From Acidobacteriota bacterium (GTDB lineage Bacteria; Actinomycetota; Acidimicrobiia; Acidimicrobiales; Microtrichaceae), in the NCBI GenBank assembly GCA_003577145.1, contig QEUP01000015.1, positions 1 through 64,000 on the forward strand: DNA of 64,000 bases, given 5' to 3'. Below, one piece after another: positions 15,372 through 20,837 of this stretch. Numbering within the stretch: position 1 is the stretch's first letter; each line of letters begins with the position of its first letter. The translations under genes and the position numbers were made by a program. Under the pieces are notes generated by a model, which searched no databases, was not told where the DNA came from, and saw only the letters and a list, made by a program, of their open reading frames with translations.

Positions 15372-16157
15372 GTGGGCAACAAGGCGCTCAAGGAGTACAT
15401 GGAGGTCAAGGGGTACGCCGACGCTGCACGGTGGGTCTACGGGCAGGCACTCGAGCCGGGGGCATGGACGGACGGCCAGCTGCTGACGATGACCGAGGTC
15501 CGCGAGGTGCACCGGATGGCGCTCGCCCCTGTCTGGGCCGTTGCTCCGCCCCCGAACGCCACCGAGCGGGAAACCCCGGGGAGCTTCCGCGAGCACGACA
15601 TCCAACCGTTCCCCGGCGGGATGGTCCCGCCATCGCGGGTCGACGTGCCCGCCGCCCTCTCCACGTGGCTCGACGAGCTCACCGATGTCGTGCGTCAGGC
15701 GCGCCCGATGGAACCGCTCGCCTCAGCGCATGGAGCGTTCGAGCGGATCCATCCCTTCGTCGACGGCAACGGGCGCACGGGCCGACTCCTGCTGAACGTG
15801 ATGCTGGTGCGCCTCGGCTACGCGCCCGCGATCATCTACACCCGCGACCGCGACCGGTACCTGCGTGCCCTGCACTCGACGGACGCGGGAGAGCCCGGCC
15901 CACTCGCTGAGCTCTTGGCCCGCGCCGTGCTCGACAACCTCTACCGGTTCATCGTCCCGGCCGTCGCTGGCCCGAGCCGGCTCGTCCCGCTCGCGTCGCT
16001 CGAGCGTGACGACCTCTCAGAGGGCGCGTTGCGCACGGCCGCGAACCGAGGGCGGCTCCGCGCTCAGAAGGGCGACGATGGTCACTGGCGTTCGACGAAG
16101 GCCTGGGTCGACGAGTACTTGACAGCCCGGCACGAGCGCCGTCCGTTGAGCGTGTGA
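15372..16157 (+). CDS. Fic-domain AMPylase-like protein, 5'-truncated
   Basis: A 261-residue Fic protein; Fic enzymes transfer AMP or another nucleotide part to hydroxyl groups of target proteins. The full active-site motif HPFVDGNGRTGR is at 127-138, with catalytic His127. The target-binding flap region REHDIQPFPGGMVPPSR lies before it, and the C-terminus has the helix-turn-helix-like RTAANRGRLRAQK and WRSTKAWVDEYL. Relatives are about 370-400 residues with an N-terminal region carrying the inhibitory (S/T)xxxE(G/N) helix before an NTLTLKQ-type motif. Here the frame upstream of GTG 15372 still encodes NTLILKQVERLLADG but has no start codon and no EG pair, so the N-terminus looks lost. No Shine-Dalgarno is seen. 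It may be a remnant or an unrestrained short form. Inverted repeats flank it. Confidence 0.75.
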   Translation: MGNKALKEYMEVKGYADAARWVYGQALEPGAWTDGQLLTMTEVREVHRMALAPVWAVAPPPNATERETPGSFREHDIQPFPGGMVPPSRVDVPAALSTWLDELTDVVRQARPMEPLASAHGAFERIHPFVDGNGRTGRLLLNVMLVRLGYAPAIIYTRDRDRYLRALHSTDAGEPGPLAELLARAVLDNLYRFIVPAVAGPSRLVPLASLERDDLSEGALRTAANRGRLRAQKGDDGHWRSTKAWVDEYLTARHERRPLSV

Positions 16158-16159
16158 GT

Positions 16160-16280
16160 TGGCACCGGATCGACACCGCAACCCGCAGAAATCGCGTCGA
16201 TTCCTGGCTCTCTCCGCTCATCGGCGAGCCATAGTGCCGGCAGAGCCGTGCTGCTCGGCCTTGGCCCCCCTTGCAAGGAG
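16160..16280 (-). repeat. Inverted-repeat arm, right (flanks the Fic gene)
   Basis: This is the reverse-complement partner of 14907-15028. It starts 3 nt after the Fic stop and ends about 95 nt before the nucleoside phosphorylase start. Outside the two strongest blocks the arms are about two-thirds identical with small gaps, and both include a CTCCTTG end and a CGGCTCT core. Confidence 0.68.
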
Positions 16281-16374
16281 ATCGGCGTGTCGGCACCTCG
16301 GTCGTTTGCGTCTGCGAGACTTTGCGCGCGCTTGGGGCGACACTGCCGAAGACGTCCAGGCGGGTGGAGTTCCG

Positions 16375-17124
16375 ATGGCCGACGCCCCGATCCTCGAGTT
16401 CGATCCCGATCGCAGCTCACTCGTCGACCCGACTGCGCAGCCGGCGCTTGCCGGTGTTCCGCCGATCGCAGTGGCGTGTTTCTTCCCGAAGGTGCTGGAA
16501 GACGTCTGCGCCGGGGCGACGGAGTTGTGCCCGCTGCCGAGCCTGCTGCCCCTGTGGCGGATCGAGTGGAACGGGTCGCGGCTCGCGGTGTTCTACCCGG
16601 GACAAGGTGGGCCACTTGCCGCGGTGACGCTCGAACGTGTCATCGCCGCGGGCTGCCGGACCGTCATCGCGTGCGGCGGTGCGGGTGCGCTGCTCGCCGA
16701 TCTCGAACTGGGTGCCATCGTCGTCGTCGATTCGGCCGTGCGGGACGAGGGAACGTCGTACCACTACCTGCCGCCGGCCCGTGAGGTGGCCGCTGAACCG
16801 TCGGTCGTGGCGCACCTGGCGGCGGTGGCCGAGCGCGCCGGTGCACCGTGCCGTGTCGCCAAGGTATGGACGACTGATGCCCTCTTCCGGGAGACGCCCA
16901 CGAAGGTGCAGCGCCGCCGCGAGGAAGGGTGCGCCGTCGTCGAGCAGGAAGCCGCCGCACTGCTCGCCGTTGCCGCATTCCGCGGCATCGCCTTCGGGCA
17001 GTACCTCCTCGCCGGCGACGACTGTTCGGGCACGACCTGGGACCACCGCGGCTGGACGAACGCCATCGACATCCAGCACGCCCTCTTCTCGCTCGCGGCA
17101 GACGCCGAAGTCGCGCTGGGTTGA
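16375..17124 (+). CDS. Nucleoside phosphorylase family protein
   Basis: A 249-residue protein of the PNP/UDP phosphorylase superfamily, which cleaves nucleosides with phosphate. ACGGAGALL is the phosphate/base loop, and VVEQEAAALLAVA matches the VEMEAAAL ribose-binding motif with Gln in place of Met. Asp in LAGDDCSG near the C-terminus sits where the purine-specificity residue lies. Start ATG 16375 has GGAG five bases upstream; an in-frame upstream extension would run through the inverted repeat and is unlikely. The methionine-to-glutamine change and the extended N-terminus leave the substrate open (uridine or purine nucleosides, or a nucleosidase). Confidence 0.88.
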   Translation: MADAPILEFDPDRSSLVDPTAQPALAGVPPIAVACFFPKVLEDVCAGATELCPLPSLLPLWRIEWNGSRLAVFYPGQGGPLAAVTLERVIAAGCRTVIACGGAGALLADLELGAIVVVDSAVRDEGTSYHYLPPAREVAAEPSVVAHLAAVAERAGAPCRVAKVWTTDALFRETPTKVQRRREEGCAVVEQEAAALLAVAAFRGIAFGQYLLAGDDCSGTTWDHRGWTNAIDIQHALFSLAADAEVALG

Positions 17125-17191: not shown

Positions 17192-17683
17192 GTGAGCGTA
17201 GTTCGCGTCTGCTTCGTGTGCATGGGCAACATCTGCCGCTCCCCGACCGCCGAGGCGGTGATGAAACGAAGCGCCGAGGAGGCGGGGCTGGTGCACCGTC
17301 TGGAGGTCGACAGTGCCGGCACCGCCGACTTCCACATCGGCGAACTGCCCGACCGGCGGGCGAGAGCCGAGGCGAGGCGGCGGGGTCTCGAGCTCGCCTC
17401 ACGTGCCCGGCAGGTGCATGTGGGCGATTTCGAGTACTTCGACCTGATGGTCGCCATGGACGAGCTCAACGCCGCCTTGTTGCGAGATCTCGCGCCCGAC
17501 ACCGCAGCCGCGGCCAAGGTTCGGCTGCTGATGGACTTCGCCGAGGACGGGGCGGGATCACCCGACGTGCCCGACCCGTACCTCGGCGGGGCTGAGGACT
17601 TCAGCCACGTGTTCGAGCTCGTGGAGGGCGCCTGTGGAGGCCTGCTCGACCACCTCCGCGCAGTGCACGACCTGCGACCATGA
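17192..17683 (+). CDS. Low-molecular-weight phosphatase (LMW-PTP fold), probably ribulosamine-phosphate phosphatase
   Basis: A 163-residue cytosolic phosphatase. The P-loop CMGNICRS gives Cys10-x5-Arg16, and Asp128 in DPYLGG is the general acid, so it should be active. It starts at GTG 17192. Its stop overlaps the start of the fructosamine-kinase gene (ATGA). In several bacteria an LMW-PTP homologue is encoded beside a fructosamine/ribulosamine 3-kinase and removes the 5-phosphate from ribulose-5-phosphate adducts on proteins, so that the kinase can act next. That role is inferred here from the gene pair; a protein-tyrosine phosphatase role remains possible. Confidence 0.92.
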   Translation: MSVVRVCFVCMGNICRSPTAEAVMKRSAEEAGLVHRLEVDSAGTADFHIGELPDRRARAEARRRGLELASRARQVHVGDFEYFDLMVAMDELNAALLRDLAPDTAAAAKVRLLMDFAEDGAGSPDVPDPYLGGAEDFSHVFELVEGACGGLLDHLRAVHDLRP

Positions 17684-18552
17684 ACGCCGCGCTCGCCGAT
17701 GCCATCGCCGAAATGCTCGCCGTCGAGGTGCTGGAGTGCCGGCCAACGGTCGGCGGCGACATCTGCACCGCCTATCGGCTCACGCTGGGTGACGGCCGTC
17801 GCATCTTCGCCAAGACCAGGCATGACGCACCCGAGGGGATGTTCCGATCCGAAGCCGAGGGCCTGGCGTGGCTGGCCCGCGCCGGGGCCGCCCGGGTCCC
17901 TGCGCCGGTGGCGGTGTGCGACGGAGACGCCGCGCTGCGCTTCCTCGCCCTCGAGTGGATCGAGCCGGGACGGCCCAACCGGGCCTACGACACGCAACTT
18001 GGTCGCGACCTCGCGGCGCTGCACTCCGCGGGGTCCGATCGGTTCGGTTTCGCGTCCGACGGCTTCATCGGCAGCATCCCCCAGGACAACACCCCGGGCG
18101 AGGACTGGGCCGAGTTCTACTGGACCCGGCGGCTCGAACCGCTCTTGCGAGAGACCTGCGACACCGGTCTGCTCGACGAAGCCGCCCGGCGTGGCTTCAG
18201 CCGGTTGGCCGACCGGCTACCCGAGTTGGTCGGCCCCGACGAAGCCCCCGCGCGGTTGCACGGTGACCTGTGGTCGGGTAACGCCATCTGTGACTCGGCG
18301 GGATCGCCCTGGCTCATCGACCCGGCCGCCTACGGAGGTCACCGGGAGATGGACCTGGCGATGATGCGGCTGTTCGGGGGGTTCGGATCGGAATGCTTCG
18401 CCGCATATCACGAGGCCCATCCCCTCGCCGACGGCCACGAGGACCGGGTCGCTCTCTATCAGCTCTACCCGCTGCTGGTGCACGTCTTGCTCTTCGGCTC
18501 CGGTTACGTCGGGCGCACCAGGGAGGCCCTGCGCAGCTATGTCAGCGCCTGA
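17680..18552 (+). CDS. Fructosamine/ribulosamine-3-kinase family protein
   Basis: A 290-residue aminoglycoside-phosphotransferase-fold kinase. The catalytic loop is HGDLWSGN (194-201) with Asp196, the metal-binding DPA is at 214-216, and IDPAAYGGHREMDLAMM is the diagnostic fructosamine-kinase block. These enzymes phosphorylate C3 of ketoamine adducts on protein lysines, which then fall off, reversing glycation; bacterial members tend to prefer ribulosamines and erythrulosamines. ATG 17680 overlaps the phosphatase stop by 4 bp, and its own 3' end overlaps the nucleotidyltransferase by 14 bp, so the three genes are almost certainly one operon. Confidence 0.93.
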   Translation: MNAALADAIAEMLAVEVLECRPTVGGDICTAYRLTLGDGRRIFAKTRHDAPEGMFRSEAEGLAWLARAGAARVPAPVAVCDGDAALRFLALEWIEPGRPNRAYDTQLGRDLAALHSAGSDRFGFASDGFIGSIPQDNTPGEDWAEFYWTRRLEPLLRETCDTGLLDEAARRGFSRLADRLPELVGPDEAPARLHGDLWSGNAICDSAGSPWLIDPAAYGGHREMDLAMMRLFGGFGSECFAAYHEAHPLADGHEDRVALYQLYPLLVHVLLFGSGYVGRTREALRSYVSA

Positions 18553-19408
18553 CGGAACTGCCCGAGCGATCACGCTGGTGATCCTGGCCGGCGGCCGCGG
18601 TACGCGCTTCGGGGGAGCCAAGCAACTCGAGCCGGTCGGGCCCGCCGGTGAGGCCCTGCTGGACTACACCATCCGGGACGCCTCGACCACCGGCTTCAGC
18701 CGGACGGTCATCGTGGCGAGGAGTGACATCGACGACGCCATCCGGTCGCATGTCAGCCGCATGCACCCCGATGCGGACATCACCGTCGTGTGCCAGGACC
18801 GCCACGGTCCCCACCGCGACAAGCCGTGGGGAACGGCTCACGCGCTGCTCGCAGCAGCCGAGACCGTCCCCGGTCCCTTCGCCACTGCCAACGCCGACGA
18901 CTACTACGGGGCGGGTTCCCTCGCCCTCCTCGCTCCTCTGCTCTCGATAACCGACGCCGGCTCGTCGGACTGGTTCCTGGTCGCCTTCCCGATCACCGGG
19001 ACCCTTTCAGCGAGCGGGCCGGTGAGCCGCGGGGTCTGCCAACTCGACGACGACGGTCAGCTCGTCCGGGTGACCGAGGAGCGGGTACAGCTCTCCCCCC
19101 GCGGCACCATCCAAACCGTGGACGGCACCGAGGTCAGGCCCGACACGCTCGTGTCGATGAACCTCTGGGGCCTGGCGCCGCCGGTCTTCGACTGCCTGGC
19201 GAGCGGTTTCGACCCCTTCGCCGCTGCCCACCTCCACGACGGCGAGGAATACCGGCTGCCCGACGAGATCGCTCGACTGCTGTCTGCGGGACGGGCCGGC
19301 GTGCGAGTCGTTCGCTCCGACGCCCCGTGGGCGGGCATCACGCACCGCGCCGACCTGCCCGGGCTCCGCCGGTTCCTGGCCGAGCTCGACAGGACCCGAC
19401 CCGGGTAG
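18539..19408 (+). CDS. Sugar nucleotidyltransferase-like protein in the deglycation operon
   Basis: A 289-residue protein with a GT-A nucleotidyltransferase fold. The N-terminal signature ILAGGRGTRFGGAKQL (15-30) is the pyrophosphorylase loop that binds NTP and metal; ATANADDYYG carries the Asp pair for the second metal site; VSMNLWGL and THRADLPGL follow in the C-terminal half. It lacks the left-handed beta-helix of GlmU-type enzymes. It starts inside the end of the kinase gene. Neither a sugar-1-phosphate substrate nor a deglycation role is established; coupling to the kinase and phosphatase suggests it handles a sugar or sugar phosphate released there. Confidence 0.85.
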   Translation: MSAPDGTARAITLVILAGGRGTRFGGAKQLEPVGPAGEALLDYTIRDASTTGFSRTVIVARSDIDDAIRSHVSRMHPDADITVVCQDRHGPHRDKPWGTAHALLAAAETVPGPFATANADDYYGAGSLALLAPLLSITDAGSSDWFLVAFPITGTLSASGPVSRGVCQLDDDGQLVRVTEERVQLSPRGTIQTVDGTEVRPDTLVSMNLWGLAPPVFDCLASGFDPFAAAHLHDGEEYRLPDEIARLLSAGRAGVRVVRSDAPWAGITHRADLPGLRRFLAELDRTRPG

Positions 19409-19577
19409 CGGGGTGTGACGGGGTTCCCCCCTACCCCGCCGACCGGCTGCCGCCGGCTCGTCCCAACCTGGCGACCTGCGCCAGACTTGGCGCAAGGCAT
19501 TGCCACGTCAGAGATGCCCCAGCAGGCCGCCGACCGGCGGCTACGCCGGCCGCCGATCTCACCGGGAGGGACCACCG

Positions 19578-20837
19578 TTGCCTGCCTACGACCCATTGGC
19601 GCTGTCCGAGCAGCTCTTCAGCGGCGAGCTGAGCATCGACGAGCGCCACCCCGTGACCCTCGCCGTGCAGACCCAGCTCGCCGAGCTGCAACCAGGCACA
19701 GCCTTCGTCGAGTCACTGGCCAACGTCGCCTGCTTCGACACCGGCTCGTCGCTCGTTCTCGTCGACTGCGGCGGGGTCGGTCACATGCATCAGGTCCACC
19801 AGGTGATCCGGGACTGGACCGCGTCTCCACTCCACACCGTCGTGTACACCCACGGACACGTCGACCACGTCTTCGGCATCAACGTCTTCGCCAACGAAGA
19901 AGACATCAGCGCGACGACGGTGATCGCCCACGAGGCGGTACCGGCCCGGTTCGATCGCTACGTCCTCACCAACGGCTACAACGCCCACATCAACCGTCGC
20001 CAGTTCCGGCTGCCCCAGCCGTGGTGGCCCAGCGACTACCACTACCCCGGTGTGACCTACGACGACGAGATGACCGCCGAGGTCGACGGGCTGCGCTTCG
20101 AGATCCGCCACGACCGGGGTGAGACCGACGATCACTCCTGGGTGTGGGTGCCGGACAGGAAGGTCCTCTGCACCGGCGATCTCTTCATCTGGGCGGCCTG
20201 CAACTGCGGCAACCCGCAGAAGGTGCAGCGCTACCCGGCCGACTGGGCCGAGGCCCTTCGCAAGATGGCCGCCCTCGGCGCCGAGCTGCTGCTCCCGGGG
20301 CACGGGCTGCCGATAGCCGGCGAGGAGAGGGTCGAGCAGGCCCTGCTGGACACCGCGGAGTTCCTCGCCTCGATCCACGACCAGACCGTTGCACTGATGA
20401 ACGACGGTCGGACCGTCAACGAGATCGTGCACTCCGTGACGGTGCCGGACCACCTCCTCGACAAGCCGTACCTCCAGCCCGTCTATGACGAGCCCGAGTT
20501 CATCGTGCGCAACACCTGGCGGCTCTACGGCGGTTGGTACAGCGGCGACCCCGCCGAGCTGAAGCCCTCCCCGGCTGGTGAGCTGGCCGGCGAGCTGGCC
20601 CGGTTGGCCGGGGGTGCCGATGTGCTGGCCGGCAGGGCCGTCGCGCTGGCGGCGGCCGGCGAGCTGCGACTGGCCGGGCACTTGGCCCAGCTGGCGGTGC
20701 AGGCAGAGCCCGACAGCCCCGAGGCTCACCGCGCGCGGGCCGAGGTGTACCGGCGGCGCACCGAGGCCGAACGCTCGACGATGGCGTCGGGCATCTTCAA
20801 CGCGGCCGCCGAGGACTCCGAGCAGTACCTCTCCTGA
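19578..20837 (+). CDS. Metallo-beta-lactamase-fold alkyl sulfatase-like hydrolase
   Basis: A 419-residue MBL-fold enzyme. The metal motif THGHVDH lies at 91-97, with later ligands in DDHSWVW, CTGDLF and LLPGHG. The C-terminal part, with YLQPVYDEPEFIVRNTWRLYGGWYSGDP and an alanine-rich tail, resembles the dimerisation domain of SdsA1/BDS1-type alkyl sulfatases, which release inorganic sulfate from primary or secondary alkyl sulfates. The family's extra C-terminal SCP2-like domain is absent, so this is a short version. TTG 19578 is the start: GGGAGGG lies seven bases upstream. No signal peptide is visible, so it is probably cytosolic. Confidence 0.85.
   Translation: MPAYDPLALSEQLFSGELSIDERHPVTLAVQTQLAELQPGTAFVESLANVACFDTGSSLVLVDCGGVGHMHQVHQVIRDWTASPLHTVVYTHGHVDHVFGINVFANEEDISATTVIAHEAVPARFDRYVLTNGYNAHINRRQFRLPQPWWPSDYHYPGVTYDDEMTAEVDGLRFEIRHDRGETDDHSWVWVPDRKVLCTGDLFIWAACNCGNPQKVQRYPADWAEALRKMAALGAELLLPGHGLPIAGEERVEQALLDTAEFLASIHDQTVALMNDGRTVNEIVHSVTVPDHLLDKPYLQPVYDEPEFIVRNTWRLYGGWYSGDPAELKPSPAGELAGELARLAGGADVLAGRAVALAAAGELRLAGHLAQLAVQAEPDSPEAHRARAEVYRRRTEAERSTMASGIFNAAAEDSEQYLS

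Follow-up and report, generated by a model that had tools for sequence, protein, structure and literature searches.

A nucleotidyltransferase gene overlapping an LMW-PTP/fructosamine-3-kinase pair in a genome of the Acidimicrobiales

Genes at the locus

The window (the whole 64,000-nucleotide stretch of contig QEUP01000015.1 that was analysed) comes from a member of the Microtrichaceae, and carries three overlapping genes on its forward strand:

17192..17683, + strand: LMW-PTP-fold phosphatase (PTP), putative (protein) ribulosamine-5-phosphate phosphatase; GTG start, 163 aa
17680..18552, + strand: fructosamine-3-kinase (FN3K) family kinase, putative ribulosamine/ketosamine 3-kinase; ATG start, 290 aa
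18539..19408, + strand: predicted GT-A sugar-1-phosphate nucleotidylyltransferase (NT) of the 3PNN type; ATG start, 289 aa

The PTP gene runs from the GTG at 17192 to a TGA at 17681-17683, and overlaps the kinase gene by 4 bp (ATGA, with the kinase ATG at 17680). The kinase stop codon ends at 18552, which places it 14 bp into the NT gene; the latter begins at the ATG at 18539, has a Shine-Dalgarno-like GGGAGG upstream of its start, and closes with a TAG that ends at 19408. All three genes have a third-position GC of 0.84-0.87, in keeping with the coding genes of this GC-rich genome. The preliminary description of this DNA had proposed three genes with overlaps of 4 and 14 bp, and the reading frames and coordinates are confirmed here, as are the Pfam families. 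From the 14-bp overlap, it is likely that the NT is co-transcribed with the other two genes. A promoter and terminator scan of the locus gave no signal above chance.

The genes on either side are oriented in the same direction. Two genes upstream of the locus is a stand-alone Fic/DOC-domain protein (15372-16157, +; PF02661, 1.1e-16), and this is followed by a nucleoside phosphorylase-family ORF (16159-17124, +; PF01048, 1.3e-32 on 16417-17124), which ends 67 bp upstream of the PTP gene. On the 3' side of the NT is a metallo-beta-lactamase-fold protein with an alkyl-sulfatase dimerisation domain (19500-20837, +; PF14863), whose ORF opens at a TTG at 19500, although the start codon is uncertain. 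The last two were considered as operon members and rejected: the phosphorylase is not recurrent at the 55 other FN3K loci described below, and the metallo-beta-lactamase-fold gene has one distant match there.

The PTP matches the LMWPc family above the curated cut-off (PF01451, 129.5 bits, 1.5e-37), and its P-loop, CMGNICRS, is intact (C10-X5-R16), as is the general-acid motif D128-P-Y. The closest solved chain is 5o7b (slr0328; 4.8e-37), which is annotated as a tyrosine phosphatase. The kinase likewise scores above the curated cut-off for Fructosamin_kin (PF03881, 231.4 bits, 1.7e-68), and also matches the APH-superfamily profile PF01636 (55 bits). Among solved structures, it is most similar to 3f7w (1.5e-58), followed by the plant protein-ribulosamine 3-kinase 6oid (3.3e-40) and human FN3K 9cx8 (2.5e-36). 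Residues I25, D217 and W219 are essential in human FN3K; D196 and W198 of the window kinase align with the latter two, and I28 aligns by eye with I25. Human N287 and H291 are replaced by V267 and L271, a pattern shared with the bacterial structure 3f7w, and alanine mutants of these two human residues are still active.

Conservation of the pair and its relation to the nucleotidyltransferase

The neighbourhood of FN3K was compared across 55 other actinobacterial loci, each in a different genome; 15 were sampled in the class, 20 in the order and 20 in the phylum. For all fetched loci, ORFs were called with a simple procedure; PTP, FN3K, NT and NahK assignments were checked by homology, while other neighbour names are rough. 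A same-strand PTP lies within 400 bp of FN3K in 21 of the 55 loci, always upstream, and besides the PTP there is no recurrent FN3K neighbour across the set. In 2007, Gemayel et al. reportedly described several bacteria in which a PTP gene stands ahead of the FN3K homologue, and PTPs of this kind as acting on ribulosamine 5-phosphates. Families, gene order and active-site residues all agree with the earlier suggestion that the phosphatase and kinase represent the described bacterial route of ribulosamine deglycation, and the pair in the window looks like a further instance of it, with substrates predicted from the sequence.

The NT behaves differently. At none of the 55 other loci does it adjoin FN3K and, in the reverse direction, neither FN3K nor PTP is found near the NT at 80 loci of NT homologues in publicly available genomes, almost all of them outside the phylum. 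In a phylum sample of 396 genomes, FN3K is present in 114 and the NT in 11 (threshold E<=1e-12), all of the latter belonging to the window's order; both occur in the window's genome only, so that the sole case of an NT adjoining FN3K among the 114 FN3K-bearing genomes is the window itself. In an order sample of 248 genomes, 53 carry FN3K and 107 carry the NT; 13 have both genes, compared with 22.9 expected, which makes their co-occurrence rarer than expected (odds ratio 0.35, p 0.003; Fisher test, uncorrected for kinship). The two genes are never adjacent in the other 12 of these genomes, but lie on different contigs. Within the window's family (33 genomes), one other genome (G527) has the NT, without a match to FN3K, while two (G509 and G522) have FN3K and lack the NT. 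The genus is represented in the samples by the window's genome alone, where the NT and FN3K have a single match each. The overlap of the NT with the FN3K gene is genuine, yet confined to the window's genome among the loci examined. The earlier view that the NT stands outside the described deglycation pathway is borne out by this lack of a recurrent neighbourhood, and a count of the NT beside the kinase-phosphatase pair returns this genome and no other.

Family, ancestry and usual partners of the nucleotidyltransferase

The NT matches NTP_transf_3 (PF12804, 45.5 bits, 1.1e-11) and PF00483 (23.6 bits, 4.6e-5), both above the curated cut-offs. The best solved relative by phmmer is 3pnn of Porphyromonas gingivalis (3.2e-48 over residues 9-284), for which our literature search found no relevant paper. 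An AlphaFold model based on 44 sequences has a pLDDT of 95.3, and a Foldseek search with this model returns 3pnn first (1.3e-29, 35% identity in the structure alignment), followed by RmlA, GlmU and GalU. Because of these matches, we consider the predicted fold to be that of a sugar-1-phosphate nucleotidylyltransferase. The NT agrees with the 44 family sequences at each of their 23 invariant columns, and has the family motifs AGGxGTRFGG.KQ, GTxHA, NADD, VSMN, E..LP and GxTxxxD. In a tree of 116 NTs, all 38 Acidimicrobiia sequences fall on one side of a fully supported branch (100/100), which shows that the NT is an old gene, native to this class, and for this reason we rejected the idea that it arrived horizontally together with FN3K.

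Among NT relatives outside the class, the same-strand neighbours met most often are GalE, which is near the NT in 13 of the 80 loci, and a kinase. This kinase is NahK (N-acetylhexosamine 1-kinase; match to 4wh1, 7e-71), and it adjoins the NT in 10 of the 80 loci, drawn from several phyla, where the spacing between the two genes is -10 to +28 bp; a GH20 beta-hexosaminidase is also present at some of these. Inside the class, a single 614-aa ORF of genome G142 (L033:4909-6753, -) contains an N-terminal 3PNN-type NT and a C-terminal NahK domain, and this fusion predicts that kinase and nucleotidyltransferase would act on one and the same N-acetylhexosamine. The G142 NT is the sister of the window NT in the tree (99/82), though on a long branch. 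In G111, also of the class, the NT gene overlaps that of NahK. Both G111 and G142 also have FN3K, but on another contig. Within Acidimicrobiia, G059 has a divergent NahK, a GH20 beta-hexosaminidase, a GNAT acetyltransferase and the NT in a cluster (L034:2181-7309), which is likely to serve N-acetylhexosamine salvage. Across the order sample, NahK is found in 29 genomes, of which 18 have the NT compared with 12.5 expected (p 0.045; Fisher test, uncorrected for kinship), and in 5 of these 18 (G059, G538, G574, G603 and G680) the two genes are on one contig within about 5 kb. Elsewhere in the order, the neighbours of the NT vary. In genomes of one family (f5; small genomes of 1.5-2.2 Mb, L036-L046), the NT mostly follows ketoacyl-ACP synthase III and thioesterase-like genes, a context that might reflect use in lipid or surface-glycolipid synthesis.

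The B. thetaiotaomicron NahK, BT4240, phosphorylates GalNAc and GlcNAc at O1 (PMC11992087), and O1 phosphorylation by NahK yields the kind of substrate that the NT needs. Given the adjacency to NahK across several phyla and the one fusion, our functional guess for the 3PNN family is that of a sugar-1-phosphate nucleotidylyltransferase, probably acting on N-acetylhexosamine- or galactose-1-phosphate. In the window's genome, a search for NahK with an E<=1e-12 cut-off gave no match and GH20 was not found, so the NT must there use a sugar-1-phosphate from another source. The absence of NahK is not special to this genome, since 89 of the 107 NT-bearing genomes of the order also have no NahK match.

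Interpretation and comparison with known systems

We consider it very probable that the PTP and FN3K are the known deglycation pair, and that the NT is an ordinary sugar-1-phosphate nucleotidylyltransferase which has become juxtaposed with them in this lineage only. In such a scheme, ribose 5-phosphate would form ribulosamine-5-phosphate adducts on lysines, and the PTP would remove the 5-phosphate. The kinase would then phosphorylate the ribulosamine O3, after which the adduct would drop off spontaneously; this would restore the amine and yield a 3-deoxyosone and inorganic phosphate. The NT would separately convert a sugar-1-phosphate and an NTP (probably UTP) to an NDP-sugar and PPi; its sugar phosphate and NTP are proposed from the NahK, GalE and GH20 context, and the family, which is widespread, would usually serve the salvage of N-acetylhexosamine or galactose, in the company of NahK, GalE, GH20 and phosphohexomutase.

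The preliminary description had instead suggested that the NT might salvage or activate the sugar phosphate released by the pair, so that the deglycation pathway would have three genuine members in this lineage. The overlapping genes fit such a role, but do so in a single genome, and the idea is at odds with the absence of recurrence in the FN3K, NT, order and phylum samples, with the under-expected co-occurrence, and with the identity of the recurrent partner, NahK; elsewhere, the NT goes with another pathway and without FN3K beside it. The chemistry also argues against it. FN3K-family kinases phosphorylate the O3 of ketosamines, and the unstable product breaks down, restoring the amine and giving off inorganic phosphate together with by-products that include 3-deoxyglucosone (PMC13223202), so that no sugar phosphate is freed, and the PTP likewise frees inorganic phosphate. 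Nucleotidyltransferases of this fold act on sugar-1-phosphates, while the ribulosamine products have no anomeric phosphate. Because neither FN3K nor PTP makes a sugar-1-phosphate, salvage by the NT fails, and we rejected it on the chemistry and the lack of linkage, regarding third membership as extremely unlikely. A related view is that the window kinase replaces NahK, phosphorylating a free sugar or amino sugar for the NT, so that the two would work together in salvage as NahK-NT or AmgK-MurU do. The recurrent partner of the NT is indeed an APH-superfamily kinase, FN3K belongs to the same superfamily, and NahK is undetected in this genome. We nevertheless find this very improbable, as the kinase has the FN3K-specific residues, is ~50-57% identical to FN3Ks from genomes that lack the NT, keeps its PTP upstream, and is missed by the NahK profile; in addition, FN3Ks phosphorylate O3 rather than O1, and the lack of NahK is nothing special here, given the many NT-bearing genomes of the order without it.

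It might alternatively be supposed that the PTP dephosphorylates protein tyrosines and has nothing to do with glycation, and that the three genes stand together by chance. Tyrosine phosphatase activity is common among LMW-PTPs, and the best solved match carries that annotation, but the frequency with which a PTP in the same orientation lies directly upstream of FN3K is far above chance, and so we hold this to be unlikely. The remaining alternative is that the NT was recruited to the pair in this lineage, where it would process a sugar product that is released when proteins are deglycated, or else accept what an FN3K-family kinase makes after a shift to free sugars as substrates. The 14-bp overlap and the GGGAGG suggest that the NT is co-translated, an arrangement that selection in this lineage might have favoured, and here the APH-superfamily kinase FN3K occupies the place of the usual NahK partner. 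If true, such recruitment would amount to a kinase-nucleotidyltransferase salvage route built on FN3K; we judge it distinctly improbable. Juxtaposition of an ordinary NT with the known pair remains our preferred reading, and a functional link between the NT and the pair is not likely. More generally, an overlapping-gene operon in one genome can mislead as to pathway membership: here the pair is conserved and the third gene is not.

Several known systems resemble parts of this locus. NahK-based salvage of N-acetylhexosamines (the LNB/GNB pathway of B. longum; the GalNAc 1-kinase BT4240, PMC11992087) is comparable in that NT relatives adjoin or are fused with NahK, near GalE or GH20, unlike the window, where the adjoining kinase is FN3K and both NahK and GH20 are undetected in the genome. 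GalY (Amuc_0031), predicted in 2017 as a replacement for GalT, belongs to the NTP_transferase family, and in 15 gut genomes its gene forms a cluster with galE (PMC5583593). The galE clustering is like that of NT relatives, a likeness of gene context, and no galE lies beside the NT in the window. AmgK-MurU, which recycles MurNAc and GlcNAc (PMC5371407), has a similar design, in which a sugar 1-kinase adjoins a nucleotidyltransferase that resembles GlmU, but its kinase is outside the FN3K family, unlike that of the window, and MurU is absent from the phmmer matches of the NT in the PDB at E values up to 1. The 3PNN-type nucleotidyltransferase of Porphyromonas gingivalis, a structural-genomics entry, is homologous to the NT over its full length. 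The closest counterpart of the locus is the bacterial LMW-PTP/FN3K deglycation pair, with which it shares both families, the PTP-first order and the essential FN3K residues, and from which it differs in having the NT gene, which begins inside the 3' end of the kinase reading frame.
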